A stretch of DNA of 64,000 bases from Nitrospiraceae bacterium (GCA_009692155.1 SHZW01000006.1:1-64000); one strand, 5' to 3'. Counted from the first letter of the stretch, positions 11,388 to 36,048 are shown. Numbers and translations are program-made. Notes: generated by a model from the sequence alone, not told the origin.

Positions 11388-11419
11388 AAAAAGGGGGCGG
11401 GCTACCCCACCCCCTTTTG
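11388..11419 (-). terminator. Rho-independent terminator of the bd-like oxidase operon
   Basis: A strong G/C stem (aagggggcgggc paired with cccaccccctttt) with a minimal loop; read on the minus strand it ends in TTTTTCTTTTCT. It begins about 27 bp after the stop codon of the NxrC-like gene and marks the end of the respiratory operon before mobA. Confidence 0.85.
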
Positions 11420-11446: not shown

Positions 11447-13246
11447 TTAGGCTTTGCCCTTCTTACGATTGGTCCGTCTCGTCAGAATCCATCCTTCCAG
11501 AATCACGATACCCACCGCGATCAAAGTCGGATAGATGTAGGTTTCCTTCGGGATCGGCGGCTGAAGGACGAGGTAATAAAACGCAGACACGGCCATCTTG
11601 CGGCCGGCATCTCCGTTGTGGCCATCCCACGCAAAAAACACCATGGGGATATACTTGCCGACCTCGAACCTCACGTCCTCATCATAATCAGCCTTGAGGG
11701 GCCGCTTGATCATGACACTCCATTGACCGTCTTTCCACTCGGCCTTCGCCAGCTTCAGCTTCTCCGTGTAGTCCTCACGGTCTTCGAAATCCTTGTCCCA
11801 GCCGGTTCCCACGAAGGCACGCAACGACCCGTCCGCCTCCCACTTCACGATATCCACCGGGTACTTCTCATCTCCCCACAGGTACCGCGGCTTTTCCGGT
11901 GGCGGCAGCTCCTGCCACTTGACCGGGAACTGGATCGCGATGGCATCGTTGTAGACCGGGTACTTGTTCTGACCGCCCGCGATCGATCCTTCTTCGCCCG
12001 TCTTGGGGGCCTGTTCCTTCACACCATGGGTTTCAACGTTCACTTCAGTCGGCTGCCAGGGAATCTTGGTTCCGGCTTCCTTGGCGACGCTCTTCGTCCG
12101 GTCATCCCACTGGAACAGGAACGCGATCTGCTTGTCCTTCGCGCTATACAGCGACTTGACCCAGACATCGTCGAGACGATTCACGAAGTTCCGGGGCTTG
12201 TGCGTGATCTGTCCGCCAAGCAGCACAATGCGGCGCTCACGCTTCTGCCACAGCTCGTTCTCCGGATCGTCCGGGATTTCGCCCTCCACGGTTCCAGACA
12301 GGATCACAAACTTGACCTTCGGCTTGTCGGTGAGCAGATCGATTTCCAGCGGGTTCCCCTTGGCATCCCGCTCGCACAGCGATTGCACGAAGTTCGAAAT
12401 GTGCCACCGCTCCTCGACTGTGGTGTTATCCGCAAACGATGGCATCGGCGTGCCGTTAACTCCCGTGGAGAACGTCCGGAAGATGTTCTTCACGTTATAG
12501 GCATCCTGACGGCTTCCTCTGAAGTTCCAACACTTGTGCTGGTTAGCCGGCTGAATGGAGAATCCCCAGTCATCCTTCAGATTGAAGGCATTGCCGTCGC
12601 CACGGCCCTCAGCGCCATGGCACTCGATGCACTTCTTGTCGAGGAAGAGTTGCTTGCCCTTTTCGATGCTCTCCGGGGTTGCCTTGATCTGTGCCTTCAA
12701 GAGCTGATCCCAATCAAGCACCGTCACAGTCTCAGTCGCCTTGTCATCGAACTTCCGGTCTTTCACGAGCTGGTTTGTTACAAAGGACAGAACTTGCAAC
12801 CGCTGCTCGTCCGTCAGAATGCCTTCCCAGGACGGCATCGCCGATCCCGGCAGGCCATGGGTCACAGTTTCATACAAGTCGTTCTGTCCCTTGGTCGGCT
12901 TTTGGGCATCGAACAGCGGCAACTCACCGCTGGCCGTGTGCCGAATCTTGAAGGTGCCCTGATTGAAGTTTCTCGGGCGCGGCCAGAGACGGTCGGCAGC
13001 CGGGCCGTCACCCGCACCATCAACCCCATGGCACCAGACACACTTAGTGAAATAGACACGCTTCCCGGCTTCGATCATCTCAGCCGCAGGCAGCGGAGCC
13101 AGATCACCTTTTTTGAACCCGGCCGGCAGCCCGCTCCCGGCTTCCTCAGCAAAGATCGAGACACCGGCGCTGCCCGAGACCATCGTGATCGCGAACGCGG
13201 CCGCGAGAATAAGGACTGCTTTACTCGTCAACCCAGCTTGCTTCAT
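11447..13246 (-). CDS. Dihaem c-type cytochrome with ethylbenzene-dehydrogenase-like haem domain (NxrC-like)
   Basis: Exported 599-aa protein. Signal peptide (about 1-34), two cytochrome c domains with CVWCH (about residue 70) and CIECH (about 208), then a DOMON-like domain of the type II DMSO-reductase gamma-subunit family, then a C-terminal TM with an RRTNRKKGK tail. This architecture resembles the NxrC candidates of Nitrospira, which link periplasmic nitrite oxidoreductase to the membrane (family knowledge). No alpha or beta subunit is in the window, so its partner is unknown; it may pass electrons to the oxidase of its own operon. The ATG at 13246 has GGGG upstream. Confidence 0.82.
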   Translation of the reverse strand: MKQAGLTSKAVLILAAAFAITMVSGSAGVSIFAEEAGSGLPAGFKKGDLAPLPAAEMIEAGKRVYFTKCVWCHGVDGAGDGPAADRLWPRPRNFNQGTFKIRHTASGELPLFDAQKPTKGQNDLYETVTHGLPGSAMPSWEGILTDEQRLQVLSFVTNQLVKDRKFDDKATETVTVLDWDQLLKAQIKATPESIEKGKQLFLDKKCIECHGAEGRGDGNAFNLKDDWGFSIQPANQHKCWNFRGSRQDAYNVKNIFRTFSTGVNGTPMPSFADNTTVEERWHISNFVQSLCERDAKGNPLEIDLLTDKPKVKFVILSGTVEGEIPDDPENELWQKRERRIVLLGGQITHKPRNFVNRLDDVWVKSLYSAKDKQIAFLFQWDDRTKSVAKEAGTKIPWQPTEVNVETHGVKEQAPKTGEEGSIAGGQNKYPVYNDAIAIQFPVKWQELPPPEKPRYLWGDEKYPVDIVKWEADGSLRAFVGTGWDKDFEDREDYTEKLKLAKAEWKDGQWSVMIKRPLKADYDEDVRFEVGKYIPMVFFAWDGHNGDAGRKMAVSAFYYLVLQPPIPKETYIYPTLIAVGIVILEGWILTRRTNRKKGKA

Positions 13247-13279
13247 GGTGTTGTACCCCTTCACCGATTGAATGCGGGA

Positions 13280-14332
13280 TTAATCCCACGTCCGAGGATA
13301 ATAGCCAGTGTGCCAGTATTCGAACAATACGACCTTCCAGATTTCGTCGGTCGTCAGGTGCTGCTCCCAGGGCGGCATGACCGAGGCCCAGGGGAACCCT
13401 TCACGGGGAAGACCGAGGCCTCCCTTGGACACGCGCCAGAAGATAAATGTTTCCTGTAATTGCGCGATCGTCCCGGGATCGGTGAAATTCGCCGGAATCG
13501 GATTGAACGCAAACGCATGCAACCCGCGCCCGTTCAAGTTATCTCCGTGGCAGAAGTGGCAATTCTGGAAGAAGATCTCGCCGCCTTCCCGCACGTTTTT
13601 CAGATAGCCTTCCGCTTTCGGATCCCACGGATTGGCATTCTCCTGCATCAGGCGGCCCATCGACTGCTCGACAATGAGCTTGTTGCTGTATTCCTGATCG
13701 TACTTGCCTTCCGGATTGGCCCGGTAGGGATTCTGCGAAGTTTGGAGCACAAAGGTCTTTCCATGCACCTTGGTGCTCGCCGGAGGAGCCGGATGCACGG
13801 TCCTCAGCTCGATCGGCTCGTCGACGTCGGCACCGGCCCCCTGAGGGACAAACGACTGGTAAGCAAAGCCCCACAAGCCAAGAGGGATCGCGATCAAAAA
13901 GAAGGTCCGCAAACCCTTGTGTAACGGCGTGAGGCCATCCATCACGTTAAGAATGGGCTGTCTGAATTTCTTCCAATCTTCCTCGTTGCTCGACATCCAC
14001 ATGAAGACGGCCACCATCGTGACCGTGCCATACATGGCCCGGACGCTGAACGGAATGGGCGGATAGATACGGCTCTTGAGGTAGAACAGAATAAACGCAA
14101 CGAAGCCAATCCCCTGCCAGAACCGAGAGATCGTCATCCCCATCGAGTTCAGCATGTAGCTCAGCCCTGTGAAGCCGGCCACAAAGATGGACAACTCGAA
14201 GAGCATCTGCATCGGCATATAGCCTTCGACCAAATGCACGGTCGAAGCCGGAATCACTCCGAAGATCATGCCCAGCAGGACGAGCGACGCGATCACTCCC
14301 ACCACTGCGCCGACTGACATTAGTGCTTTCAT
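13280..14332 (-). CDS. Membrane monohaem cytochrome c
   Basis: A 350-aa protein with about five TM helices in its first 190 residues and a periplasmic C-terminal cytochrome c domain with one haem motif, CHFCH (about residue 260), and candidate axial Met in ASVMPPWEQHL. The N-terminal membrane part matches no family I can name. It sits in the oxidase operon, 36 bp after the next cytochrome gene, with a GGGAGT ribosome site 7 nt before ATG. It probably relays electrons to the bd-like oxidase (inference). Confidence 0.85.
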   Translation of the reverse strand: MKALMSVGAVVGVIASLVLLGMIFGVIPASTVHLVEGYMPMQMLFELSIFVAGFTGLSYMLNSMGMTISRFWQGIGFVAFILFYLKSRIYPPIPFSVRAMYGTVTMVAVFMWMSSNEEDWKKFRQPILNVMDGLTPLHKGLRTFFLIAIPLGLWGFAYQSFVPQGAGADVDEPIELRTVHPAPPASTKVHGKTFVLQTSQNPYRANPEGKYDQEYSNKLIVEQSMGRLMQENANPWDPKAEGYLKNVREGGEIFFQNCHFCHGDNLNGRGLHAFAFNPIPANFTDPGTIAQLQETFIFWRVSKGGLGLPREGFPWASVMPPWEQHLTTDEIWKVVLFEYWHTGYYPRTWD

Positions 14333-14368
14333 CTCTTCACTCCCTTTAATACACGCAAGAAACTGGAT

Positions 14369-15664
14369 TTACGAAATCTTCGGTGGCGGCGCGCCCGCTT
14401 TCACTTGAGACAGATAATCCACAATCTTCTTCAGCGCACCAGCACTCAGTTTCTGCCCGAATATCTTTGGCATCAAGTTATCAGGAAACCCTTTCACAAC
14501 GTAGGTGCTCGGCAACACGACGGACTCCATGATGTACTCCTGCGTGTTCTTTGCAGTCCCTTTATAAGCCGGGTCATGGATCCGGTTCGGTGCATTCGTC
14601 CCTTCTTCGAGCTTGGGGCCCTGGGTGCCGGTTGCGCCGGGAATCCCCGGGATGGTATGGCACACCACGCACTGCCCTTTCGCAAAAATCTGATCGACCG
14701 GCTCAGTGCCGTCGGCCAGCAGCTGCGTGGGGCCTGCCGCCTTATCATCCTGCTGCTTCGGCCGATCCGCTTCCGGAACAAACTTTTCGTAGGACTTGAT
14801 AATGTCTTCGTATGATGGCGCTTCCCTGCCCTCGCGCACGTAGAGCCAGGTATCCACCGCCGCCAACTCAGGCAGCGACAAAGATATCGGTGGCTTATGG
14901 ATCTTCGGCATGGGGCTTTCCTTGTCGTTCGTGCCCTTCACGCCGAAGCCGGGGGCAACATAGCAATTCGGGCAGGAATGCGATTCGGCGATGTATTCCT
15001 GGACCGTCGTCGCGGTCCCGCACCCGGGGCACGATTCCTTGTCAACGTAGGCACGCTTCTGCGGCTCACCCTTGTGGTAGTTCGGATCCGTCAGCCGCTC
15101 CTTCTCCGCGCGCTCTGGAAGGCCGAACAGGTTCGGCGCACGCTCGCTCAGGAACCCCTTTTGGAACCCGTGACAGAGCGGGCATTGGCCCTTTCCGATC
15201 GCGCCCTGCACGGAACTCTGCCCGATCCCGCCGAAGATAATTTTTTCACCCTCATCGGCCAACTGCTGAGACGACATGGCGTCGAAAACCAACTTCACGT
15301 CTGGGGGCGGAAACCCGCCTTCCACCTGCGGCAGCCAGTTCCCGTAGCCGGACAGCGCCGCCGCGACGAGGAACATGAACCCGCCGATCTTCAAGAGCGC
15401 GCTGACGTTGGAGAAATAGAGCGCCATCATGAAGGTCGTCGCGGTGATCAACACCAGCGAGACAGGCAGCAAGCGAGATTCGGCGAAGAAGTTGTCCCTA
15501 TAATTGGTAATCGCCATGAAGATCATGAGCGTGGCGAGCATGCCAATAAAGATCTTGAAGGCTCCGTCTTTATTCCCCTTGGTGAAGTTGTACACCAGCA
15601 ATCCCGCCAGGACTGCCAGCACTCCCCACCCCATACTCAGTGCGGCTACCAGTAACTCTTTCAC
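14369..15664 (-). CDS. Membrane dihaem cytochrome c with an inserted CPxC pair
   Basis: Four N-terminal TM helices (to about residue 115), then two related cytochrome c domains with haem motifs CPLCH (about 162) and CVVCH (about 331). The first domain carries an extra segment with CPGC and CPNC about 20 residues apart. Neither is followed by His, so they look like a zinc ribbon or degenerate haem sites rather than working haem c. Start: GTG at 15664, with GGAGG eight nt upstream, is better than the upstream GTG at 15682. Part of the oxidase operon; probably its cytochrome subunit. Confidence 0.83.
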   Translation of the reverse strand: MKELLVAALSMGWGVLAVLAGLLVYNFTKGNKDGAFKIFIGMLATLMIFMAITNYRDNFFAESRLLPVSLVLITATTFMMALYFSNVSALLKIGGFMFLVAAALSGYGNWLPQVEGGFPPPDVKLVFDAMSSQQLADEGEKIIFGGIGQSSVQGAIGKGQCPLCHGFQKGFLSERAPNLFGLPERAEKERLTDPNYHKGEPQKRAYVDKESCPGCGTATTVQEYIAESHSCPNCYVAPGFGVKGTNDKESPMPKIHKPPISLSLPELAAVDTWLYVREGREAPSYEDIIKSYEKFVPEADRPKQQDDKAAGPTQLLADGTEPVDQIFAKGQCVVCHTIPGIPGATGTQGPKLEEGTNAPNRIHDPAYKGTAKNTQEYIMESVVLPSTYVVKGFPDNLMPKIFGQKLSAGALKKIVDYLSQVKAGAPPPKIS

Positions 15665-15738
15665 TTCACAGCCCTCCCTCACCCAGTTCCCGCTTAGGCG
15701 GGGACCAGATCATAAGAAATCAAGCAATCAACCGAGGA

Positions 15739-17673
15739 TTAATGTCCGTGCGCAGGCTCGGGCACCCGGCCAGGCACATGAGCCTTTACATTAACCGGCA
15801 CTTTCTTGGCCCCCAACGTTCCCAGCCAGAATACGAACAGAATGCTGATCCAGAAAAACAGCACGTTAAATGAAATCATATTGGCGGCAAAACCCACCGT
15901 GTGCGTATAGGCCCAGGGCGAGTTATCGCGCATGATCTCATTCACATGCCAGAACAGACGCACGGACGACCGGATGTAGCCCATCAGCCCCATCATCCAG
16001 GTGAATGCCGTCGCCAGCATGATGATCGCGTACTGGGACCGCACAGAAATCTTGCCCCATTCGATCGGTCCCATCTGCTTGGCCCCCTTCAACATGAAGC
16101 CATTCAGAGCAGTCATGAAGAAGAGGCACGACAGCGTCGTGGCGACTTGAGGCACCGACAGCCCGACTCGGACGTTTGCCGGGATATAGTAGCCGTAGAC
16201 GGCAAGCCAGATGATATTCACATAGGCGAAACCGAAGAACGCCCCCATGAAGATGTTCCCGAAATTCTTCCACGGCACCATCGGCTCCTTGTTCCCGCGC
16301 ATATACCAGATAAAGCTCAGCACCGTCGTGGTGATGATCACGTTGATGCCGCCGTTCTTGGCCGACATCACACCGTAGTTCCCCAACACCGGGTGCTGCT
16401 GGCCGCCCATGGCTTTGAGCTCAGCCGGCGTCATGACCATCGTGTGCGGCGTGATGAAGATCAGGAACCCGCACACCAGCACAAACACCAGATACTTGAT
16501 GTACCGCTGATATTTTTCCGCGCCGCGCATTCTTCCGAGCGCCTGCCACAGGTAGTAGTTGGTGCTCAGAAACAGAATGCCGATCATGGTCGCCTGGATG
16601 ATGAAGAGCCACGCCAGCAGCCCGCCCATCAGCGTGATCCCCATCTGCTGACGGTAGGCATAGACCTCGCGCATCAGCCAGTAGCCGGCGAATGGCAGCG
16701 GAATCAAGAACGCAACGGCGAGGGCCATCGCGATATAGCCCATCCAGTCATAATGGGCCCGCTCCTCGTCGGTCTTCGCGGAGAGGAACCGGTACGCCGC
16801 ATAGGCCGCCACCACGCCACCGCCGAAGGCCATATTGCCCAGAATGCGATGCACGTTCAGCGGGTTCCACAGCGCCGTATGGATCACGTGCCAGATATTG
16901 CCCAGGAAGCGGCCCTGCTCATCCACGCCGGCTGGAGACATCATGAACCCGATCCAGGAATTCGCCAGCATCATCAGCAGAGTCCCAATGACGTTCAGGA
17001 TCACCGACATGCTGAGGTGAATCCACTTCAGGAACCCCTCCTTCATCTTGTCCCATCCATAATAGTAAATATAGAGGGTGCCGCTCTCGGCCACGAACAT
17101 CAACGCGTAGATGTGCATGACGGGGCGGAAGATGCTGGAGAGATACCCGAAGAACGCAGGATACAAAGTCAGAAAGGTAAAGATCAGAATGCCGCCAAGG
17201 ATGGCCGTCAGCGAGTAGGCCGTCAGGCTGATCTTGATAAAGTCATAGGCGAGCTGATCGTACTTCTTCGCCATCGCCTTGTCCTTGGTGACCACCCCCA
17301 TGAACTCGATGATCATACAGAAGATGGGTACCGCCAGGACGAAACTGCCATAATACAAATGCTGCTGGTTGGCAAACCACAGGAGCACGCGGCTCTCGAA
17401 GTTATAGCGCGGGTAGTCCCTGGGGCCGTCCACCGTCTTTGGGGCCGGAGCTCCCGAGACGATGCCCTCGGTCTTATAATAGACATCCCGGCCTTTCTCG
17501 ACCTTGGCCTCGTCCTTCTTCTCCCCCTCCGCCTTGACTGCAGGAGCCGGCGGCGCCTCGCCCCCTCCGCTCGCAAGCGCGTTCAACGAAGTGGCGACCG
17601 GCAGAAGAAGGAAGCCAATCATCGCGCAGAGCGCCATGATCGACCAGATCTTCTTTCCGTTTTGACGACCCAT
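15739..17673 (-). CDS. Cytochrome bd-like terminal oxidase, large subunit
   Basis: A 644-aa polytopic protein (about 13-14 TM) with an N-terminal signal anchor. CydA-like marks are visible: QQH in the first core helix (haem ligand position), ANSWIGFMMSPAG (CydA ANxWMQxPxG), NPLNVHR, and AGYWLMREVYAYRQQ at the GRQP-like site. The usual CydA is ~450-520 aa, so this belongs to the extended Nitrospira-type family proposed as terminal oxidase there (family knowledge). No CydB follows; cytochromes c and microproteins do. The start at 17673 has a perfect GGAGG with 7-nt spacing. A paralogue lies at 21248-23137. Confidence 0.85.
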   Translation of the reverse strand: MGRQNGKKIWSIMALCAMIGFLLLPVATSLNALASGGGEAPPAPAVKAEGEKKDEAKVEKGRDVYYKTEGIVSGAPAPKTVDGPRDYPRYNFESRVLLWFANQQHLYYGSFVLAVPIFCMIIEFMGVVTKDKAMAKKYDQLAYDFIKISLTAYSLTAILGGILIFTFLTLYPAFFGYLSSIFRPVMHIYALMFVAESGTLYIYYYGWDKMKEGFLKWIHLSMSVILNVIGTLLMMLANSWIGFMMSPAGVDEQGRFLGNIWHVIHTALWNPLNVHRILGNMAFGGGVVAAYAAYRFLSAKTDEERAHYDWMGYIAMALAVAFLIPLPFAGYWLMREVYAYRQQMGITLMGGLLAWLFIIQATMIGILFLSTNYYLWQALGRMRGAEKYQRYIKYLVFVLVCGFLIFITPHTMVMTPAELKAMGGQQHPVLGNYGVMSAKNGGINVIITTTVLSFIWYMRGNKEPMVPWKNFGNIFMGAFFGFAYVNIIWLAVYGYYIPANVRVGLSVPQVATTLSCLFFMTALNGFMLKGAKQMGPIEWGKISVRSQYAIIMLATAFTWMMGLMGYIRSSVRLFWHVNEIMRDNSPWAYTHTVGFAANMISFNVLFFWISILFVFWLGTLGAKKVPVNVKAHVPGRVPEPAHGH

Positions 17674-17736
17674 GGTATACCTCCCTGACAACCGTCTCAT
17701 GATTTTCAGTTTCACAATGTTCCGATGCGGCAACGA

Positions 17737-17961
17737 TTACTTTCTAAAGAGATACCAGTAGTCCAGTCCCTGCATTTCCATCAGGTAATGATCGACAATG
17801 TGGAAATAGGCGACCACGATGACGACGGACACCATCGCGGCATACGCCGTGTTATTCAGGATGTTCATCTTTTTCCCGACGAACAGCAGGACGACACCGA
17901 AGGCCAGAAGAGCAAACCAGAAGATTGGATTGGTGATAGCCTTGATAATCATCATTTCCAT
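17737..17961 (-). CDS. Small two-TM protein, likely oxidase accessory subunit
   Basis: A 74-aa protein starting MEMMIIKA, with two predicted TM helices and ending in DYWYLFRK. The ribosome site is GGGGGAG, 6-7 nt before ATG; the longer frame to 18018 has no comparable site. It lies 63 bp upstream of the bd-like oxidase on the same strand. Small subunits such as CydX or CcoQ are known in other oxidases, and this may play that role (inference). I know no named family. Confidence 0.72.
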   Translation of the reverse strand: MEMMIIKAITNPIFWFALLAFGVVLLFVGKKMNILNNTAYAAMVSVVIVVAYFHIVDHYLMEMQGLDYWYLFRK

Positions 17962-17992
17962 TGCAAGACTCCCCCTTAAAAAGTATGGCGGA

Positions 17993-18109
17993 TCAGCACG
18001 GACATTGAATGCCGGCAAACCAGTAGAAAAACCACAGGCCCACCGCGAGGGTGATATAAAAAATCATCTTGCCAAGTTTGACCTGGCTATCGTTCTGTGC
18101 CGCGTCCAT
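17993..18109 (-). CDS. 38-aa single-TM microprotein heading the oxidase operon
   Basis: The ATG at 18109 has AAGGAG with 6-nt spacing. The frame encodes 38 residues: a polar N-terminus (MDAAQNDSQVKLGK), one hydrophobic helix rich in Trp and Phe, and the tail CPC. It is the first gene of the operon, 31 bp before the 74-aa gene. The strong ribosome site, TM profile and position support a real CydX-like subunit. It is short enough for automatic callers to miss. Confidence 0.65.
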   Translation of the reverse strand: MDAAQNDSQVKLGKMIFYITLAVGLWFFYWFAGIQCPC

Positions 18110-18198: not shown

Positions 18199-18303
18199 AT
18201 GGGAAAAAACTCGAAAACCTTCGATATTGTAGTTTTGGCTGGCATGGTTGTCAATATAATTTTGGCCGTCTTTCTCATTCTCTACTACTTTGACTTCTTG
18301 TGA
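18199..18303 (+). CDS. 34-aa single-TM microprotein
   Basis: ATG at 18199, TGA at 18301-18303. The residues are a short basic N-terminus (MGKNSK) and one long hydrophobic helix ending YYFDFL. Its 3' end overlaps the convergent SUMF1 gene by 19 bp. The ribosome site (GGGGTAGAG) is imperfect. The codons make a clean membrane helix, which is unlikely by chance but not proof. It may be another small subunit of the respiratory complex. Confidence 0.45.
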   Translation: MGKNSKTFDIVVLAGMVVNIILAVFLILYYFDFL

Positions 18304-19202
18304 CTTTTCCCCCCTTTCACCGCCTGCGTGAATCCCTCGTTCTGAACGCCGGAAACAGCACAGCGAAAGCCGATCGTCTCATCCCGAAAATCCGGCACCA
18401 TTTTGTTTCGACTGGTCACGCGGACGTCCGTTCCTGACGTCGTGTATCCGCCTCCGCGAAGCACTCTGAACGTTCCGAATTCAGGTCCCTTGGGATTTTT
18501 GTCGACAGGATCGCGATAGGCGCCCTCCCCGTACCAGTCAGCAACCCACTCGATCACATTGCCGGCCCCGTCAACGACTCCGAACGGACTGACATCCCGT
18601 TTAAATGAACCGACCGGCGCCGCCACCTCGTAGCCATCTTTTGCCACCGCCCAATTGGATGCCAATGGATCGACCTCATTGCCCCATGGCCACAAACGCT
18701 TGTCGCCTCCTCGCATGGCTTTCTCCCACTCCGCTTCGGTCGGCAACCGCTTCCCCTTCCATCGACAATAGGCCTCGGCGTCGTCCCACGACACATAGAC
18801 CACCGGCTGATTGATGCCTCGCATGCGCGTCATATTTTTTGCGTAGCGGGACGGCGGCCCGGCTTTGCGATGATTGGTCGCTGCCACAAATGCGGCATAG
18901 TGATGGTTCGTCACTTCATATGTGCCGATCGTGTAGGCGTCGAGATGGATCGATTTCACCGGCTGCTCATCAAATCCTCCGGCGATCGTGCCGCGTATAA
19001 AAGGCCCGGCGGGAATGCCGACCGCCGCCTCTTCGATCGGAGATTCATCGGCACCGGCCGTTTGCGCATCGACCGCGGGCGCTTCCGGGAGGTCCGGCCC
19101 GATTGGCGGGAGCGTCGTTCCGCGAAGAATGCCCATGATCGGGAAACTGGCAAAGATCGCCACCACGACCAGCATCGCGATCTTGAAACGTGTTTCAATC
19201 AT
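18285..19202 (-). CDS. Membrane-anchored SUMF1/FGE-fold protein
   Basis: A 305-aa protein: N-terminal TM (about 8-28), then the formylglycine-generating-enzyme-like fold with GTYEVTNHHYAAF, LPTEAEWEKAMRGG, GNVIEWVADWYG, RVLRGGGY and the terminal IGFRC. The active-site cysteine pair of true FGE after RGGS is absent, so sulfatase maturation is unlikely. Such proteins are frequent beside respiratory genes in Nitrospira (recollection). It is the last gene of the second oxidase cluster, 63 bp after a related gene. Function unknown. Confidence 0.82.
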   Translation of the reverse strand: MIETRFKIAMLVVVAIFASFPIMGILRGTTLPPIGPDLPEAPAVDAQTAGADESPIEEAAVGIPAGPFIRGTIAGGFDEQPVKSIHLDAYTIGTYEVTNHHYAAFVAATNHRKAGPPSRYAKNMTRMRGINQPVVYVSWDDAEAYCRWKGKRLPTEAEWEKAMRGGDKRLWPWGNEVDPLASNWAVAKDGYEVAAPVGSFKRDVSPFGVVDGAGNVIEWVADWYGEGAYRDPVDKNPKGPEFGTFRVLRGGGYTTSGTDVRVTSRNKMVPDFRDETIGFRCAVSGVQNEGFTQAVKGGKSHKKSK

Positions 19203-19265: not shown

Positions 19266-20186
19266 CTACTTCTTCACTCGGAGGCGGGACTCGTCCGCAT
19301 CGCGCGCGCACCGGATGCCGATCGTGCTGTCCGTCCGCCATTTCTTGGCCGCAAACCGTTTCGACAGCCGGGCGTTATGCGACGTTTCACGCCAGGACCC
19401 GCCACGAATGACCTTCAGGTCCGCCTCTTCCGGCCCCGGGGGATCCCGGTAGGGCGTCTTCTTGTAGTAATTTTCGTCGTAGGAGTCTGCCACCCACTCG
19501 GCAACATTGCCCGTCATGTCATAGAGGCCATAGGGACTTCGCCCGGCCTCAAGCACGCCGGGCGGTGCGAGATACTGAAACCCGTCCTCCCTGCCGTCCA
19601 CGTTGGCCTGGCCAGGCACAAACGTATCGCCCCAGGCGTAGCGCCGCCGGCCCTCGCCGCGGCCGGCTTTCTCCCATTCCGCTTCGGTCGGAAGCCGCTT
19701 GCCCCCCCATTTACAATAGGCCTCCGCGTCCAACCACGACACACCGATCACGGGCAATTCGGGCTTTAAAATTTTTGCCTGGTCGTCTTCGAACACCGGG
19801 AATCCCGGCTTGTTCCGCTTGGTCATCCTGAGGAACCGGTCGTATTCCGCCTGCGTGACTTCCTTCTTATCCATATAAAAGGTCTTGAGGTAGGCCTGAT
19901 GCTCGGGCACTTCGTCAGGATCGCCCTCCGAGCTTCCCATCGTGAAGGGGCCTTCTGGAATCTGGATCATTTCGCGACCTTCATCGCCCACCAGCGTCTT
20001 GTACATCGAAAAGTCCCGTGCGGCAACCGCTGCCACCGGCCGATGCTCCGTCTTGACCGACGCCAACAGCTCGTGCTGCTTCTTCGCTTTATACGATTCG
20101 TGAACCAGCAACCCGATCATCAGCACAAACGAGGCAAAGACAAAAATAATCGACCCGATCAGAACGTTCTTATTCTCCATGCTCAC
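19266..20186 (-). CDS. Membrane-anchored SUMF1/FGE-fold protein
   Basis: A 306-aa protein with one N-terminal TM and the SUMF1 fold: IPEGPFTMGSSEGDPDE, KKEVTQAEYDRFL, LPTEAEWEKAGRG, GNVAEWVADSYDE, VIRGGSW, and terminal IGIRCA. Its sequence is related to the next gene downstream. It lacks the FGE cysteine pair. Start GTG at 20186 (AGGTG upstream) or ATG at 20180; the two differ by two residues. It follows a small membrane protein by 21 bp. Confidence 0.82.
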   Translation of the reverse strand: MSMENKNVLIGSIIFVFASFVLMIGLLVHESYKAKKQHELLASVKTEHRPVAAVAARDFSMYKTLVGDEGREMIQIPEGPFTMGSSEGDPDEVPEHQAYLKTFYMDKKEVTQAEYDRFLRMTKRNKPGFPVFEDDQAKILKPELPVIGVSWLDAEAYCKWGGKRLPTEAEWEKAGRGEGRRRYAWGDTFVPGQANVDGREDGFQYLAPPGVLEAGRSPYGLYDMTGNVAEWVADSYDENYYKKTPYRDPPGPEEADLKVIRGGSWRETSHNARLSKRFAAKKWRTDSTIGIRCARDADESRLRVKK

Positions 20187-20615: not shown

Positions 20616-21251
20616 TTACGGAGCGGTCACAATGATCGGCCCAAAATCCACTTCCACGCCGGGTCCGCCCAGCAGGGAAATCCCCCAGGCCTGGGCCGCC
20701 GGTTCGTGCCGATGGATGCGCTTGAAATCTTCATACGCATTCACGCGCTGCTCCACCCACTCCCCAAATCCTCTTGAGCCTTTCTGCAAGACAATCTCGG
20801 AGGCGTCGAACAGCCCGCCTTCCGTCATCGTGCCGACGTCCTTGGTCTGGCTCCAGACATATTTCGTGGCCACCGGGATGACCAGCAGATCCGTGTCCAG
20901 CGAGACAAAGACCGCCGCGATCGGATCGGCTCCAGCCGGCGCTTTTTTCACCCGCCAGCGCCACGTGACGATCGGCATGGCCTTGGGATCCCAGGCGATC
21001 CGCTTGTAGACCCGCTGATCGGCGCCCTTGGCTGCCAGAAACGTCATGCCCTTCTCGGATTGAACCGTGTATTGTTTCCTCGCTTTCGTCTCCTGTCGCT
21101 GCGCCTTCCATGCCGTCGGGAACCCGTCCGCGTCTTTGGCACTGTACTCATCCAGCACCAACAAGCCGGCCGATTGGGCCGACATCGGAACGGAGAACGC
21201 GCAGAACACGACCAGCGCGCCGACGGACGCCATTCCTGCCACATGCTTCAT
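20616..21251 (-). CDS. DUF3047 exported protein
   Basis: A 211-aa protein with a signal peptide (about 1-28, ending SAQSAG) and the DUF3047 core: YKRIAWDPKAMPIVTWRWRV, DPIAAVFVSLD, VATKYVWS, and a terminal VDFGPIIVTAP. The biochemical role of this family is unknown. Its ATG overlaps the stop of the second bd-like oxidase (ATGA), so it is co-translated with it. The frame remains open far upstream to 22268, but that part overlaps the oxidase and is a shadow. Confidence 0.82.
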   Translation of the reverse strand: MKHVAGMASVGALVVFCAFSVPMSAQSAGLLVLDEYSAKDADGFPTAWKAQRQETKARKQYTVQSEKGMTFLAAKGADQRVYKRIAWDPKAMPIVTWRWRVKKAPAGADPIAAVFVSLDTDLLVIPVATKYVWSQTKDVGTMTEGGLFDASEIVLQKGSRGFGEWVEQRVNAYEDFKRIHRHEPAAQAWGISLLGGPGVEVDFGPIIVTAP

Positions 21252-23137
21252 GACGGCTGCGCCTCCTGCGGCGACGGCGGAAAGAGCGGCCGGTTCTCCA
21301 TCGCCGCATCCATTTGGGGAAGCGGGCGCTGATCGCGGCTGCTGAGCCAGAACAGCAGCAATGCCGTCATCCAGAATACCACCATGTTCACCGTCACCAT
21401 CTTGGCCGCAAAAGCCAGCGTGGGGGTATAGGCCCAGGGCGAGGCATCGGGCATCAGTTCGTTGACATGCCAGGCCAACCGGCCTGACGAGCGAATATAG
21501 CCCATGAGTCCCATCACCCACGTGAAGGAAGCCGCCAGCCCAAAGAGCGTCACCATGCCCCGGACGGACATTTTTCCCCACACCACCGAACCATGCACGA
21601 TCGCCCCGCGCAGCATCGCGCGATTGAGCAACAACCCGGCTACGACGGCCGTCAGCGTGGTAAACGCCTGCGGCGATGACAGCCCCACGCGCACACTGGC
21701 CGGCACATAGAACCCGTAAATGGCCAGCCAGACGATGTTCACCATGCCGGCGCCAAACAACGCGGCCAGCAGGATGTTCCCCTTGCGCGCCCAGGGCACG
21801 GTGATCGTACGATTCGCGCGCCGGTAGAAGATATAGCTCAAGGCCGTCAGGCAGATCATCACGTTCACCGCGCCGTTCTTGGCCGACATCACGCCGTAAT
21901 TGCCGACCACCGGATGCTGCGCGCCTCCCATGGCTTTCACTTCGCTTCCGGTCATCATCACCGTATGCGGCGTCAGCCACACGAAAATGCAGCCCGTCAG
22001 CCCCAGGATCAGGTACTTGTACGCCTGCTCGTAGCGTTGCCCTCCCTGCAGCCGCCCCATGCTCTGCCAGAGGTAATAGTTGATGCCGAGAAACAGCACG
22101 CCGATCAGGAGCGCCTGCACGACGAACAGCCACGTCAGCAGCCCGCCCATCATCGTCACGCCCATGCTTTGCCGGAACGCATACACCGACCGCATCAGCC
22201 AGTAGCCCGCAAAAGGCATCGGCAACAGCGCGACCACCGTCACGATCAGGAACACCGCCCCGACCCAATCGTAGTAGGCCCGCTCCTCCTCCGACTTGCT
22301 CGTCAAAAACCGATACGACGCGTAGGCCAGCACCACGGCCCCGCCGGACATGATGTCCGCAAGAAACCGGTGGACATTGAGCGGATTCCAGAGCGCCGTG
22401 TGCATCAGGTGCCAGACATTACCCAGAAAGCGCCCCTGGGCATCCACACCGGCCGGCGACATCATGAAGGCAATCCAGCTGTTTGCCAGAAACAACAGCA
22501 TCGCACCGAAGATGTTGGAGAGGATGCCGATCGCTGCATGGAACCATTTCAGCGCCGGCGACGCCATGCGGTTCCAGGTGTAGTAGTAGGCGATCAGGCA
22601 CAGGGCTTCCGCGTTGAAGACGAAGGCATAGACGGGCATCATCGCCTTGAATGTCCCGCCCATGTACTGCATGAAGCCCGGATAGAACCAGATGAACAGC
22701 CCCAGCATCAGGCTCCCGACCACAGCCGTCAGCGACATCGCCAGCAGCGCGACGCGCAGAAAGTCCCGGGCCGTCTGGTCGTACCGTAGCGCCGCCGCCC
22801 GGTCGCGCGTGACGAGACCGGCAAACTCCAGGATCACGCAGAAAATGGGAAGTGCGAGCACGAAGCCGCCGAAATAGGTGTGCTGCTGGGTGACAAACCA
22901 GACGAACGTGCGGTTGTCCAGTGAGCCATAGCGGGGATAGGCCGACGCATCACCTGCCGGCGCCGGCGGACCATTGGGAACACCCGGCGTCTTGTAATAG
23001 ACATCCGTGGCCGTCTCGGTTGCAGGCCCCGCACTGTTCTCTGCCACGGTTGCGGCACCGAGCGGCACCGCGAGCAGCGCCAGCACGAACATGATGGCAG
23101 CCCATGCAACTGGCTTTGACTGAAAATGATTGATCAT
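21248..23137 (-). CDS. Second cytochrome bd-like oxidase, large subunit
   Basis: A 629-aa paralogue of the protein at 15739-17673, similar along its whole length: a signal-anchor N-terminus, DVYYKTPG, QQHTYFGGFVLALPIF, ANSWIAFMMSPAGVDAQGRFLG, NPLNVHRFL, AGYWLMRSVYAFRQ. It keeps the same haem-ligand candidates. Unlike the first copy it has no adjacent cytochrome c or 74/38-aa genes; it is surrounded by PCP_red, DUF420-like and DUF3047 genes. ATG at 23137 preferred over a TTG at 23164. It overlaps DUF3047 by 4 nt. Confidence 0.83.
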   Translation of the reverse strand: MINHFQSKPVAWAAIMFVLALLAVPLGAATVAENSAGPATETATDVYYKTPGVPNGPPAPAGDASAYPRYGSLDNRTFVWFVTQQHTYFGGFVLALPIFCVILEFAGLVTRDRAAALRYDQTARDFLRVALLAMSLTAVVGSLMLGLFIWFYPGFMQYMGGTFKAMMPVYAFVFNAEALCLIAYYYTWNRMASPALKWFHAAIGILSNIFGAMLLFLANSWIAFMMSPAGVDAQGRFLGNVWHLMHTALWNPLNVHRFLADIMSGGAVVLAYASYRFLTSKSEEERAYYDWVGAVFLIVTVVALLPMPFAGYWLMRSVYAFRQSMGVTMMGGLLTWLFVVQALLIGVLFLGINYYLWQSMGRLQGGQRYEQAYKYLILGLTGCIFVWLTPHTVMMTGSEVKAMGGAQHPVVGNYGVMSAKNGAVNVMICLTALSYIFYRRANRTITVPWARKGNILLAALFGAGMVNIVWLAIYGFYVPASVRVGLSSPQAFTTLTAVVAGLLLNRAMLRGAIVHGSVVWGKMSVRGMVTLFGLAASFTWVMGLMGYIRSSGRLAWHVNELMPDASPWAYTPTLAFAAKMVTVNMVVFWMTALLLFWLSSRDQRPLPQMDAAMENRPLFPPSPQEAQPS

Positions 23138-23144
23138 GCTTGGC

Positions 23145-24239
23145 TCAACTGTGCTTTCCCGCAATGACCGTCGGAGAGGGAATCGTGGACATCACCCCAG
23201 GCGGCGGGCCGCCTCGTCCCAGAGTCGGCTGCTTCGACAGAATACCCATCACAAACGGGCAGCGCAACAGGGAAGGCGGGACTATCTGGCGAAGCTGATT
23301 TTCCACATGGCGGCGATGCCCCAGGTAATAACAATACATCGCCATCATACCGGCCACGGCACCGGCAATCACTCCCCGCGTCAGGCTGCCACTCACGTCA
23401 GTGTGCATCACGAAGAACAACAGCCCAGCCCACGAGAGATAATAGGTCGCGGCAAAGGCGAGACCGGGCCACCACCAATAGCGAAACAGTTCCATCCATC
23501 CGGCCGCGCTCATCATGGCGCTCCACCCGCCGGGCCGTTGTTCGCCCGCCAAATACGCCCACACGGACAGGCTCCCGGCGCACAGCGTCACCAGGATCAA
23601 CTGGGCCAACCCTGTTGCCGCCTGGTCATGCACCATGCCCAGAGCAACCGCCACCACCGCACAACCCAACGCTGGGAACAGCGCCCACCGGACGATCTGC
23701 CCGGTTCGAGCACCGGCGGTGTCTCTGAAGCTCGCACCGTCTGGAAATGTCACGATCGGTTCGCCTTGCCGCTGGAGGCGGCGGACATGTCCGATCTCGA
23801 ACGCATCGCGCGCGACAGACGTACAGGCAATGATGATCGCCATCATCGCCGGGCCGTCCGGATGCTGGAGAAAATCGTAATTCACCAGAATCTTCAGCAA
23901 GGCCAGCACCATCAAGGACAACTGCACGCCGTAGACGAATCCAATCCATCCGACCAGCCAGGCCAGCCGGCGCATGCCGTCTTCGCGCCTCACTTGAGCA
24001 AGAGACACCTGGCGTCCCATCCGATAGGACCAGACCGCCGTCGCCGCCGACACCACACCGCTCACTGCCAGCAACATGATCGCATCCGAAAGCGGGACGA
24101 TCTGTTTCGTCAGGCGGTAGATGACAAAAGCCACGAGGCCAGGGGCAAGCATCACCAGCCGCTTGCGCTTGCGGACTGGCTCCGCCGTCACTGCCAGCGC
24201 CAGGGAAGGGAGCACCCGCAAGGCCATCCGATGCAACAT
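23145..24239 (-). CDS. Polytopic membrane protein of unknown family
   Basis: A 364-aa protein with about eight or nine TM helices, an RKRKR basic stretch after residue 22, and a Pro/Gly-rich C-terminus. Potential metal ligands are scattered (for example MHTDV, YYLGHRRHVENQ). I recognise no family. It ends 7 bp before the second bd-like oxidase, so it is likely co-transcribed and may be an additional membrane subunit or assembly factor. Confidence 0.7.
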   Translation of the reverse strand: MLHRMALRVLPSLALAVTAEPVRKRKRLVMLAPGLVAFVIYRLTKQIVPLSDAIMLLAVSGVVSAATAVWSYRMGRQVSLAQVRREDGMRRLAWLVGWIGFVYGVQLSLMVLALLKILVNYDFLQHPDGPAMMAIIIACTSVARDAFEIGHVRRLQRQGEPIVTFPDGASFRDTAGARTGQIVRWALFPALGCAVVAVALGMVHDQAATGLAQLILVTLCAGSLSVWAYLAGEQRPGGWSAMMSAAGWMELFRYWWWPGLAFAATYYLSWAGLLFFVMHTDVSGSLTRGVIAGAVAGMMAMYCYYLGHRRHVENQLRQIVPPSLLRCPFVMGILSKQPTLGRGGPPPGVMSTIPSPTVIAGKHS

Positions 24240-24295
24240 AATGAGCTCGTTAGGCGTGAAACGTAAGGCGAAGCCCCGCCCCCACGTTTTACCTT

Positions 24296-24787
24296 TTACG
24301 TCTTTTGCGCCGCCATTCCGAAATACTTGGCTTTGACTTCTTCCATCAGCTCGACGGTCACCGTGGCCTGCCCTCGCTCCAGCGCGGTCCGTTCCAATTC
24401 GACTTTCGCCATGGCACGGACCGGCCCCGGCACATTATCCAGCCGCCGCTCGGCTTCAAGATCCCACGCGACCGTCCCGCCATTTTGCGCCTGGGCCAGC
24501 AAGGTAAAAGAGATGACCCGTTGTTCTTTCGAGCGCGCATAGTCCTCGGCCTTTTGGCGGACAAGCGGCGCGACGTAGGGCGGCATGCGGTCCAGCACAT
24601 GCCGGGCCTCGTCGGTCCACATGAGCCGGTCCACCAGTGAGGCTGCCTCAGCCACCGGCGCTTCCGTCCCGACTTTCCAGTGGCACCCGCAACATGCGAA
24701 TCGTACGAACCAGGCCGACGCGCGGCCATCCATCCGCTCTTCGATTCCTTCCGTATGCATCCAGCGTCCGCAGCCGCAGGTCAGCAT
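24296..24787 (-). CDS. Cys-rich protein with two PCP_red-like domains
   Basis: A 163-aa protein. The N-terminus has clustered cysteines (CGC near residue 4; CCGCH near residue 32), possibly a metal site. Two tandem ~45-residue units follow: WTDEARHVLDRMPPYVAPLV... and WDLEAERRLDNVPGPVRAMA.... Each resembles the PCP_red domain found at the C-terminus of the protochlorophyllide reductase B subunit. The organism shows no photosynthesis genes here, so the domain must serve another job, perhaps in assembling the oxidase. ATG at 24787, 4 bp after the preceding gene. Confidence 0.68.
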   Translation of the reverse strand: MLTCGCGRWMHTEGIEERMDGRASAWFVRFACCGCHWKVGTEAPVAEAASLVDRLMWTDEARHVLDRMPPYVAPLVRQKAEDYARSKEQRVISFTLLAQAQNGGTVAWDLEAERRLDNVPGPVRAMAKVELERTALERGQATVTVELMEEVKAKYFGMAAQKT

Positions 24788-24791
24788 GGCA

Positions 24792-25508
24792 TTACCCAAT
24801 TTTCCCCGGATACAGAATGTAGAGCATCGTGTACGTGAGACTGCCGGTCACGAACAGCACGCAATAGACGATCATCGTAAACAGACCCAGCGCCCGGTGC
24901 CGCCGTTCGCCGTTCGGCCAGATCCGCTGAATGGCCATTTCCACGGCAAAGACGATCCCGATCAGGATCACGAACCCGAGATAGACTTCCAGCTTACGCA
25001 CCGAGAATCCCGCTGTCGCCACGCGCCAGAGAAACAGTCCGACGAGGACCGCCGCGATGCTGCCGAAAATTTTCCCGACTTTCCCCCAGGAGGTCTGCAG
25101 CAGGGCATCGCGAAGCACACGCTTGCCTTCGACGATAGCCTGCGAGCGGAATCCCAGCACGATCATGTAGACCGCCATGACGATACCGATCACCACCAAC
25201 ATGATGTGGAAGGTCAGAAGAGGAATAAATACATTGTGATACAGGGCTTCCGATCCTCCGAAGCCTTCCTTCCCTTCAAAGGCCAGCACGCCCAGCGACC
25301 GGAAGAGGTAATAGCTGGTGAAAAACGCCAGCATGGCGATCATGCCGCTCAGCATCAGCCAATGATGCACGTGCCCCTGCCGCTGGCGCGCCTGCAACCA
25401 GCCGATCACAAACAGGGTCGTAAATACGGCCGCCATGAGCTGGCTGAGGTCCGCGCCCATCGTCGCGTGTGTGCCAAAAAACCCCGATTGCTTGAGAAAC
25501 TCCGCCAT
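24792..25508 (-). CDS. DUF420-like membrane protein
   Basis: A 238-aa protein with about six TM helices. Features like DUF420: HHWLMLSGMIAM, SYYLF, a central FHIMLVVIG helix, and the C-terminal RHRALGLFTMIVY...LTYTMLYILYPG. DUF420 proteins occur with haem-copper oxidase genes and are linked to oxidase assembly (CtaM type). Here it sits in the second bd-like oxidase cluster, between PCP_red and the methyltransferase. Family assignment is by motif only. Confidence 0.65.
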   Translation of the reverse strand: MAEFLKQSGFFGTHATMGADLSQLMAAVFTTLFVIGWLQARQRQGHVHHWLMLSGMIAMLAFFTSYYLFRSLGVLAFEGKEGFGGSEALYHNVFIPLLTFHIMLVVIGIVMAVYMIVLGFRSQAIVEGKRVLRDALLQTSWGKVGKIFGSIAAVLVGLFLWRVATAGFSVRKLEVYLGFVILIGIVFAVEMAIQRIWPNGERRHRALGLFTMIVYCVLFVTGSLTYTMLYILYPGKIG

Positions 25509-26730: not shown

Positions 26731-27516
26731 CTACTTGATTTGGGCGGTCACCGTCGCCTTACCGCCTTCGGGCACATCGACTTCGACTTCAACCGCCTTG
26801 CCCTTGCCCACGAACGGATGCCAGACCGTCAGCTTGTGCTTGCCCGCCGGCACGTCCTTGATTTCGAAGGAGCCGTCATTGCCCGCCACCGCGAAGTGCG
26901 GGTTGTTCACCGGCCAGAAGAACGACTGCATGAACTCATGCTGGTCGCACTGCAGGCGGAGCATGGAGCCCTGCTTGCGCATGATCGCCGGCTTGTCGAG
27001 CTTGGAGTCTTTCTCCGCGAGCGCGATATTAAAGATCGTCGAGGAACTGGGGCCCATGACTTCGAAGGAATGCGGGTTGTGCAGCACGCCCTTCAACGAC
27101 TTCGGATCGTCCGGATCGCTGTCATGGTTCTCGACGTGGAAATTCTTCATCTTGACCACCACGCCCGTGTACGGCTGGAACTCGCAGAACTCGGCCACGA
27201 CTTCGGTGCCCTTGTAGCCGTCGACGAACGCCTTGTCCTCGACGTCGGCCACCGCCACCACGGCGCCCTTGAGACCACCACCATTGACCTCGATGGTCTT
27301 CAGGATCCGCTTGTCGCCCTGAGAGAGTTCCTTTTTGGGAATCTTCGGGCAGAATTTCGGATTCGGGAACTTGGCGAAGGAGAAATCCTTCTCCTCGGCC
27401 TTGCCGGCATAGGTCACCTTACCTGAAATGGTCCCGCCGGCAAACGAGGTGAGGGGCATGGCGAGAAACGCCACCGCCACCATAACAACGACAAACAATA
27501 CACCCTTCTTCTCCAT
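26731..27516 (-). CDS. Exported cupredoxin/carboxypeptidase-regulatory-like protein
   Basis: A 261-aa protein with a signal peptide (about 1-26, ending TSFAGG) and a GTISGKVTYAG start of the mature part. A candidate blue-copper site is formed by His in LHNPHSF and the cluster QCDQHEFM (Cys-x2-His-x2-Met). The C-terminal ~70 residues are a carboxypeptidase-regulatory/transthyretin-like beta domain (GSFEIKDVPAGKHKLTVWHP). Related genes lie at 29096 and 30049. It has its own promoter (27640-27669), perfect GGAGG ribosome site and terminator, suggesting independent strong expression. A periplasmic electron carrier is inferred. Confidence 0.78.
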   Translation of the reverse strand: MEKKGVLFVVVMVAVAFLAMPLTSFAGGTISGKVTYAGKAEEKDFSFAKFPNPKFCPKIPKKELSQGDKRILKTIEVNGGGLKGAVVAVADVEDKAFVDGYKGTEVVAEFCEFQPYTGVVVKMKNFHVENHDSDPDDPKSLKGVLHNPHSFEVMGPSSSTIFNIALAEKDSKLDKPAIMRKQGSMLRLQCDQHEFMQSFFWPVNNPHFAVAGNDGSFEIKDVPAGKHKLTVWHPFVGKGKAVEVEVDVPEGGKATVTAQIK

Positions 27517-29095: not shown

Positions 29096-30025
29096 TTAAT
29101 GCTGGAGCTGAACTAACGGCTCAATGTGCAGGGGATGGCCAAGCGCTTCCATGCCGAACCGGGGATTCTCCACGACCTGGTGGGAAGTGCGGCGTCCAGC
29201 CGGTGCCTTCATGGAAAAATGTACCTCGGCCTTGCCGTCCGGCTTCACCACGACAATCTCCTCCGACATGGTGCCTACATAAGGATGCCACGCCACCATC
29301 CGATAGCTGCCGGGCGGCACGTTCTCGATCGTGTACGAACCGGAGTCATCCGTGATCGCGTAATAGGGATTGGAAACCGCCAGCCCCCAGCTGAGCATAT
29401 AGGCATGAAAGCCGCATTGCATGACGAACAGCTTACGGCCTTTGTGCAAATTGACAGGCTCCAGCATGGACGGACCGGGCATGTGCCGGTGCGTCGCATG
29501 GAGATCGCCGCGCTTGTGATGGGCATTCATCGGCAACGGCGAATTGAAGATCACGCGCGGACCCAACTGCAGTGACGTCTCGTACGCCTGAATGTCGTGC
29601 ATGACCGGGTCCATGTTCACGACTTCCACTGCATGGCCGTTGCGCACCACGGTCACAAAGGGCTGGAACTTGCAATCGCGTGCTTCGACACGGGGCACCG
29701 ACAGATCGAAGGGCCTGCCCCTCTCCACGCCTTCCAGAGAGATGGCGACATCCTTGAGCCCGCCAGTCTGATCGATTGAAAAATCGTGGAGCAGCCGCCA
29801 GCCGCTTCCATTCGAGATGCGACCGCAGTATTCCGGATCGGGGAAGGTGACGAGATTGAACCCTTGCGACGTTGGAACCGGCTGGCCCTGAAGCGTCACC
29901 TTGCCGGTGATAGTCCCGCCATGCTCGACCTCGGCTACTTCATAGGCCGAGGCGGGCATGCCGGGCAGAAGACCAAGCGCCAGCATCCCTCCAATTGCCA
30001 AGAAGATTCGATGGGAAAGGATCAT
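29096..30025 (-). CDS. Exported cupredoxin/carboxypeptidase-regulatory-like protein
   Basis: A 309-aa protein with a signal peptide (about 1-27). Candidate type 1 copper ligands: His in DPVMHDIQAYE (about 124), then Cys, His and Met in MQCGFHAYM (about 205). A carboxypeptidase-regulatory-like beta domain follows (GSYTIENVPPGSYRMVAWHP). It is very similar to the next gene upstream (30049). It lies 23 bp downstream of that gene, so probably the same operon as the multicopper oxidase. Likely electron carrier or copper-binding partner (inference). Confidence 0.8.
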   Translation of the reverse strand: MILSHRIFLAIGGMLALGLLPGMPASAYEVAEVEHGGTITGKVTLQGQPVPTSQGFNLVTFPDPEYCGRISNGSGWRLLHDFSIDQTGGLKDVAISLEGVERGRPFDLSVPRVEARDCKFQPFVTVVRNGHAVEVVNMDPVMHDIQAYETSLQLGPRVIFNSPLPMNAHHKRGDLHATHRHMPGPSMLEPVNLHKGRKLFVMQCGFHAYMLSWGLAVSNPYYAITDDSGSYTIENVPPGSYRMVAWHPYVGTMSEEIVVVKPDGKAEVHFSMKAPAGRRTSHQVVENPRFGMEALGHPLHIEPLVQLQH

Positions 30026-30957: not shown

Positions 30958-30989
30958 TGAGAATGCTCCACTATGATTCATCATAAACA

Positions 30990-31018
30990 ATGAGGGGGAG
31001 CCTTGGGCTCCCCCTCAT
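30990..31018 (-). terminator. Hairpin between multicopper oxidase and cupredoxin genes
   Basis: A perfect 13-bp stem (30990-31002 with 31006-31018), 3-nt loop, then TGTTTA on the minus strand. It lies 33 bp after the multicopper oxidase stop. The short T-tract suggests partial termination, which would set a lower level for the downstream genes, or protection of the upstream mRNA. Confidence 0.6.
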
Positions 31019-35890: not shown

Positions 35891-36048
35891 GGGACGGCCT
35901 CCTTGAAATGGAAATGACATGGCAAGCTCTGTGAATCAGTTATGTGGTTACAGGATGGACACTGGCGGGAACACTACCCGGCCTGTGACACGTAACCGCG
36001 ACAACCCTCCAAACAACATTTTGATAAATATAGAATAAAAACGGCCCT

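Follow-up and report, generated by a model that had tools for sequence, protein, structure and literature searches.

A bd-like cytochrome module with three microproteins in Nitrospira relatives and its putative place between the quinone pool and the periplasm

Introduction

What is the role of a membrane protein that resembles the large subunit of cytochrome bd (CydA) when it is encoded without its usual partner CydB and together with several c-type cytochromes? This question is raised by an operon at positions 11,447 to 18,109 of a 64,000-nucleotide stretch of DNA from a Nitrospiraceae bacterium (GCA_009692155.1, SHZW01000006.1:1-64000; the whole stretch is hereafter called the window). An earlier note on this sequence had proposed a cytochrome-c-coupled or hybrid oxidase supercomplex, in which an NxrC-like protein couples a periplasmic molybdoenzyme directly to oxygen reduction. 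We have found that the core of this operon recurs in the same gene order across many bacterial groups, in some genomes next to genes for NosZ-like enzymes, and that three microproteins accompany it in Nitrospira relatives. We give an even chance to the reading that this module is a reversible quinone/periplasmic-cytochrome oxidoreductase, passing electrons from quinones to carriers in the periplasm or back.

Results

The operon comprises six genes on the minus strand, running from 18109 down to 11447 in the order m1, m2, bd-like, cytA, cytB and alt-NxrC, and is tightly packed, with intergenic gaps of 31-63 nt. Its parts, together with a divergent third microprotein gene, are as follows.

18199-18303, plus strand: m3, a third microprotein of 34 residues (MGKNSKTFDIVVLAGMVVNIILAVFLILYYFDFL) with a single transmembrane (TM) segment, divergent from the operon and m1
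17993-18109, minus strand: m1, a microprotein of 38 residues with one TM segment and CPC at its end
17737-17961, minus strand: m2, a microprotein of 74 residues with two hydrophobic segments and a conserved C-terminal D..LM..QGL motif
15739-17733, minus strand: bd-like, a member of the CydA superfamily corresponding to bd-like_3 (likely start ATG at 17673; Pfam Cyt_bd_oxida_I, 1.7e-15)
14369-15682, minus strand: cytA, a dihaem cytochrome c of the membrane (CPLCH, CVVCH), whose N-terminal part has about four hydrophobic segments
13280-14332, minus strand: cytB, a membrane monohaem cytochrome c (CHFCH) with several hydrophobic segments
11447-13264, minus strand: alt-NxrC, with a signal peptide, two c-type haem domains, an EB_dh domain (7.1e-15) and a C-terminal TM segment, corresponding to alt_NxrC_2
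11389-11418, minus strand: a strong terminator-like hairpin (13-bp stem and T-rich tail) at the operon end

The operon and genes described in the earlier note were thus all recovered on the minus strand, with short gaps and the hairpin after the last gene. Its bd-like subunit without CydB was also confirmed, since the Pfam scan of 28 open reading frames (ORFs) of the window matched Cyt_bd_oxida_I and gave no match to subunit II. The same holds for its three c-type cytochromes, two of them with several TM segments, in view of the CxxCH counts of two in cytA and one in cytB and the two c-haems of alt-NxrC. The two microproteins that it had named are m1 and m2, and the total has to be raised to three by m3 on the plus strand. 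No molybdopterin oxidoreductase match was found among the window ORFs scanned, and nxrAB is located elsewhere in Nitrospira genomes (PMC6606698). We also observed that cytA carries extra CPGC/CPNC cysteine pairs near the first haem (residues 218-240), found only in Nitrospiria members, which are possibly a metal site.

Orthologues of bd-like, cytB and alt-NxrC were found on one contig in 47 of the 60 Nitrospiraceae genomes, and strand and order are identical in all 47. In these genomes the distance from bd-like to cytB is 1406-1477 nt, leaving room for cytA, and that from cytB to alt-NxrC is 18-78 nt; in two further genomes the locus is split by contig ends. The longer loci of the class and of the phylum also have cytA in its place. 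Public genomes were then scanned with a cytB profile, giving 444 loci with relatives, of which the best 80 were kept and read; best here means most similar to a distant Nitrospirota query, and many of the 80 come from metagenome-assembled genomes (MAGs). The order bd-like, cytA, cytB, alt-NxrC is found in nearly all of these 80 loci from about ten phyla, spanning Nitrospirota, Aquificaceae, anammox Planctomycetota, several proteobacterial groups, Poribacteria, Rokubacteria, Gemmatimonadales and others. A bd-like relative is present in 54 of the 59 genomes of the anammox order, and the Scalindua and Anammoxibacter loci encode bd-like and cytA in a single open frame (the fused form occurs in four genomes of this order). 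Because of this fusion and the strict gene order, it is very likely that the operon products form one physical complex. The earlier note had named conserved gene order as a check of its proposal, and order is indeed conserved in all the testable Nitrospiraceae genomes and nearly all of the 80 loci. The single-complex part of its supercomplex is supported by order and fusion, whereas the oxidase part is not, as described below.

The genomic contexts of the module elsewhere bear on its function. In nine genomes (Thermodesulfovibrionia, Magnetobacterium-type and Aquificaceae) a nos-type cluster surrounds it, with genes in the order c-cytochrome, NosZ-like, NosR-D fusion, NosF, NosY, cupredoxin-like, transglutaminase-like, thioredoxin-like, cupredoxin-like, bd-like, cytA, cytB, alt-NxrC and usually NosL (in Magnetobacterium casense the NosZ-like gene is about 9 kb further up, in a stretch that stops short of the module; locus L073 was used to read the module itself). 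The NosZ-like proteins of these clusters are divergent, scoring 468-504 bits with TIGR04246 against a curated cut-off of 625; judged by sequence, they are probable N2O-reducing enzymes, an identification that the accessory genes support. In a Gallionellales genome, a clade III lactonase-type NosZ (L-NosZ) is encoded directly downstream of the module (770 bits, cut-off 700; L146 12797-14650), and in a Desulfuromonadales genome the module has NarG (1390 bits, cut-off 1084) and NarK as neighbours. Cox genes are present in the Poribacteria loci. The factor common to these contexts appears to be a periplasmic high-potential redox enzyme and not O2. Since the contexts share such an enzyme, the most likely role of the module would be to link the quinone pool and periplasmic carriers. 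Because it recurs across bacteria, in some next to a NosZ-like enzyme, and is accompanied by three conserved microproteins, the module has the appearance of a general complex for electron transfer and less that of an enzyme dedicated to O2 consumption. Conserved synteny as a proof of an oxidase was rejected, as the same synteny is found in nos-type clusters and in anammox genomes.

The same neighbourhoods could be read differently, with the bd-like core reducing NO or otherwise using N-oxides, which would explain why the module is present in nitrite oxidizers, in anammox bacteria and beside NosZ-like genes. We know of no cytochrome bd protein that acts as an NO reductase, and the cox genes beside the Poribacteria loci do not fit this reading. 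The module is present on a contig (L096) of the MAG nzgw271, which has been reported to lack norB and for which a novel NO reduction has been suggested, but norBC is prevalent in Thermodesulfovibrionia, the class that carries the nos-linked module (PMC11033732). We therefore consider NO handling improbable.

We then compared the bd-like subunit with CydA. A confident AlphaFold2 model (predicted local distance difference test 82, predicted template modelling score 0.82) has about 13 TM helices and a signal helix, and its residues 109-645 match CydA/AppC (7ose_A; Z 33.5, root-mean-square deviation 3.3, 349 residues). Second among the structural families comes ActF, from alternative complex III, at Z 22.8. 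The module shares with that complex a membrane core and c-cytochromes; the ActF match reflects a helical bundle and is weak evidence of kinship, and the operon differs in having no ActB-type iron-sulphur subunit and a core sequence akin to CydA, not to NrfD/ActC/ActF. In a profile alignment, the haem ligands His19 and His186 and the proton-path residue Glu107 of CydA correspond to H125, H295 and E216, all three invariant among 53 sequences, whereas Glu99 is replaced by Tyr209, also invariant in the 53. The canonical Q-loop is gone: the CydA profile alignment stops after TM6 and the region is helical in the model. A weak local alignment (RQPW/RLFW, probability ~48%) puts Ser589 at CydA Glu445 of the GRQPW motif, and Met393 of CydA is not alignable. 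Glu356 (GYWLMREVYAYRQQ), which resembles Glu445 in sequence context, was set aside as its equivalent; the C-terminal RxxW (592-595) suits the order of the fold better, but neither is firm. By alignment and model, it is plausible that haems lie near the CydA positions. In comparison with cytochrome bd oxidase (CydAB, CydX), the module thus shares the CydA fold, the equivalents of His19, Glu107 and His186 and small accessory TM proteins, and differs by the lack of CydB and the Q-loop, extra helices at about 373-547, the change of Glu99 to Tyr and its c-cytochrome partners. The bd-like protein thus has no canonical quinol site and a changed O2 site, observations that neither prove nor exclude O2 reduction.

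These features have to be weighed for a cytochrome c-fed O2 reductase, in which electrons from NXR would travel by way of alt-NxrC and then the membrane cytochromes to bd-like and O2. A partly intact CydA core with the CydA fold and conserved H125, E216 and H295, the aerobic life of the organism and the lack of a located quinone site in bd-like are in line with this proposal, which has also been published for the homologous cluster of Nitrospinae (PMC8026999), and OR-N members have been classed as oxygen reductases (PMC12342949). It is at odds with the invariant Tyr at CydA Glu99, the Ser589 that the weak alignment sets at Glu445, and the occurrence of the module in nos-type clusters and in anammox bacteria, anaerobic according to literature and taxonomy. 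Moreover, the bd-like proteins of this cluster type lack two haem-copper-type ligands (PMC8026999), and for Nitrospira a different paralogue (NIDE0901-like) is favoured as the O2 reductase (PMC12342949). An O2 reductase is thus the less likely reading, and the oxidase proposed in the earlier note is not supported, in view of the loss of the Q-loop and of Glu99, the anammox occurrence and the NosZ-like neighbours elsewhere.

The alt-NxrC profile matches NXR-C (7b04_C, E 3.5e-21) and the gamma subunit of EBDH (2ivf_C). With NxrC and EBDH gamma, alt-NxrC shares the EB_dh domain, to which it adds two c-haem domains and a TM segment. In NXR-C, haem b is bound by Met155 and Lys305 (KsNXR-C, PMC8387239). 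Trp463 of alt-NxrC lies at the Met position, and Lys556 is present one residue off register. Phe, Trp or His (mostly Trp or Phe) occupies the Met position in the other aligned Nitrospiria members, and many non-Nitrospiria members retain Met. The EB_dh domain is also found in modules linked to NosZ-like genes. Because of this and of the lost haem-b Met, alt-NxrC gives no evidence of coupling to a molybdoenzyme, and the NxrC-like protein was ruled out as a proof of such coupling. As far as sequence comparison goes, the NxrC-like appearance is a property of the module everywhere and not a sign of a molybdoenzyme partner, so that the direct coupling of a molybdoenzyme to O2 proposed in the earlier note is not supported. 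A related suggestion is that the module passively anchors the soluble NXR complex in the membrane or relays its electrons, with no catalysis of its own (an anchor role is suggested in PMC6606698). The relationship of the EB_dh domain to NXR-C and the C-terminal TM segment would suit it. The same domain beside NosZ-like genes and Trp463 in place of the haem-b Met argue against it, and an anchor would have no need of a conserved, haem-binding core like that of CydA; we find this suggestion very improbable.

The three microproteins were searched for with hidden Markov models (HMMs) built from a few members, the seeds being counted among the matches. Matches to m1 and m3 were found in 33 loci each and to m2 in 38 loci, nearly always just upstream of a bd-like gene (one weak m1 and one weak m2 match look spurious). 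None of the three was found in the Thermodesulfovibrionia, Aquificaceae and anammox module types. Among Nitrospiria orthologues, the ratio of nonsynonymous to synonymous differences (pN/pS) is 0.07 for m1 (46 sequences), 0.18 for m2 (24 sequences) and 0.09 for m3 (37 sequences); the pairs compared are not independent, the contrast being large nonetheless. These results show that m1, m2 and m3 are coding and under purifying selection. Cytochrome bd has a small accessory subunit, CydX, and by analogy with it the microproteins are probably structural subunits.

The neighbourhood upstream of the operon includes a second bd-like gene, kept at the same place in long Nitrospiraceae loci, with a gene set (21248-25508) that is conserved and collinear in Nitrospiraceae.

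21248-23164, minus strand: second bd-like gene, corresponding to bd-like_4, 54% identical to bd-like_3
23145-24239: membrane protein without a Pfam match, part of the bd-like_4 set
24296-24799: PCP_red-domain protein, part of the bd-like_4 set
24792-25508: DUF420 membrane protein, part of the bd-like_4 set

Between the two bd-like clusters lie two FGE-sulfatase-domain (formylglycine-generating-enzyme-like) genes (18285-19202 and 19266-20186), and at least one copy is found at the same place in most long Nitrospiria loci (L048-L061). Some Nitrospiraceae have an additional bd-like gene that shares about 80% identity with bd-like_3 and has no partner cytochromes adjoining (L051 6666-8945, L052 9034-11037). 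The window also encodes three related cupredoxin-like/CarboxypepD_reg proteins (26731-27516, 29096-30025 and 30049-30990). Since 31 of the 80 loci have relatives of these genes close to the module, the three proteins may be electron carriers of the module. A multicopper-oxidase-like protein of 1622 residues, of which Pfam covers only part of the length, is encoded at 31052-35920.

Discussion

The four-gene core is the known bd-like_3/alt_NxrC_2 cluster of Nitrospira, including its bd-like_4 duplicate, and its synteny in Nitrospina and anammox bacteria is already on record. In N. moscoviensis, alt_NxrC_2 (NITMOv2_3640) is a dihaem protein of 66.8 kDa that has a signal peptide and a single TM segment, and it clusters with two membrane c-cytochromes and bd-like_3, a duplicate bd-like_4 being a few genes off in all Nitrospira (Mundinger et al. 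2019, PMC6606698). The gene set of the window matches this cluster, including the ~66 kDa dihaem alt-NxrC and the nearby bd-like_4, and the microproteins, which find no mention in the consulted passages of that paper, are the only difference found. Supercomplexes have been put forward for such a cluster, which is among the 40 most strongly transcribed genes of N. moscoviensis during nitrite oxidation (PMC6606698). Nitrospina and Kuenenia carry a homologous cluster in which helices replace the Q-loop (Lücker et al. 2013, PMC3578206), and electron flow from nitrite through the alternative NxrC to a bd-like terminal oxidase is the proposal cited above for Nitrospinae. Their cluster shares with ours the Q-loop-less bd-like protein, the alternative NxrC, the c-cytochromes and nearby cupredoxin-like genes, and differs in being linked to NXR genes and in cytochrome haem numbers (PMC3578206, PMC8026999); some anammox genomes differ in the fusion of bd-like and cytA. 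As the cluster and the coupling proposal are in these three papers, neither the cluster nor the oxidase-coupling idea of the earlier note is new. What is new here are the three microproteins, the nos-type contexts, the loss of the haem-b Met in alt-NxrC and the residue changes in bd-like; in a partial coverage of the literature, no paper was found on the microproteins of the module or its linkage to nos genes.

We propose that the core is a CydA-like, Q-loop-less membrane b-cytochrome, which together with two membrane-anchored c-cytochromes and the dihaem EB_dh cytochrome would form one complex, with the microproteins as assembly or stabilising subunits like CydX in cytochrome bd. The c-haems would exchange electrons with periplasmic high-potential partners, namely an NXR-derived cytochrome or copper carriers here and a NosZ-like or Nar-type enzyme elsewhere, and the b-haems would hand electrons to the quinone pool of the membrane or take them from it. 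The flow would be downhill, from quinol to the periplasmic reductase, in organisms that respire N2O or nitrate, and uphill in nitrite oxidizers and anammox bacteria, where it would be driven at the cost of the proton motive force and feed reverse electron transport. Nitrite has a potential of about +0.42 V, and periplasmic nitrite oxidizers must push electrons up to quinones; reverse electron flow has been proposed in nitrite oxidizers (PMC3578206; PMC6606698).

Several points weigh against a quinone/periplasmic-cytochrome oxidoreductase. The canonical Q-loop is absent from bd-like with no quinone site located, and bd-like has been described as lacking all quinol-binding residues (PMC3578206). 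In nos clusters, the NosR-like protein could itself supply the electrons. Several module loci, in Poribacteria and others, lie beside haem-copper oxidase genes, and OR-N proteins, types of which are named in Nitrospirales, have been classed as oxygen reductases (PMC12342949). Only tentatively do we suggest a wider picture, in which the module would be a respiratory complex of general use that has so far escaped recognition, a counterpart of complex III that is derived from CydA and includes the three microproteins as subunits. It would connect quinones with N-oxide enzymes of the periplasm, with electrons running either downhill to NosZ-like or Nar-type enzymes in respirers or uphill from NXR in nitrite oxidizers and anammox bacteria.

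These results set the cluster apart from the search for the terminal oxidase of Nitrospira. The three microproteins are concrete missing subunits for the purification or structure determination of the complex, and the same four genes in nos-type clusters and many phyla offer other organisms in which the direction and the substrate could be tested. For periplasmic nitrite oxidizers, this highly transcribed cluster would be a standing candidate for the electron route from nitrite to quinone.

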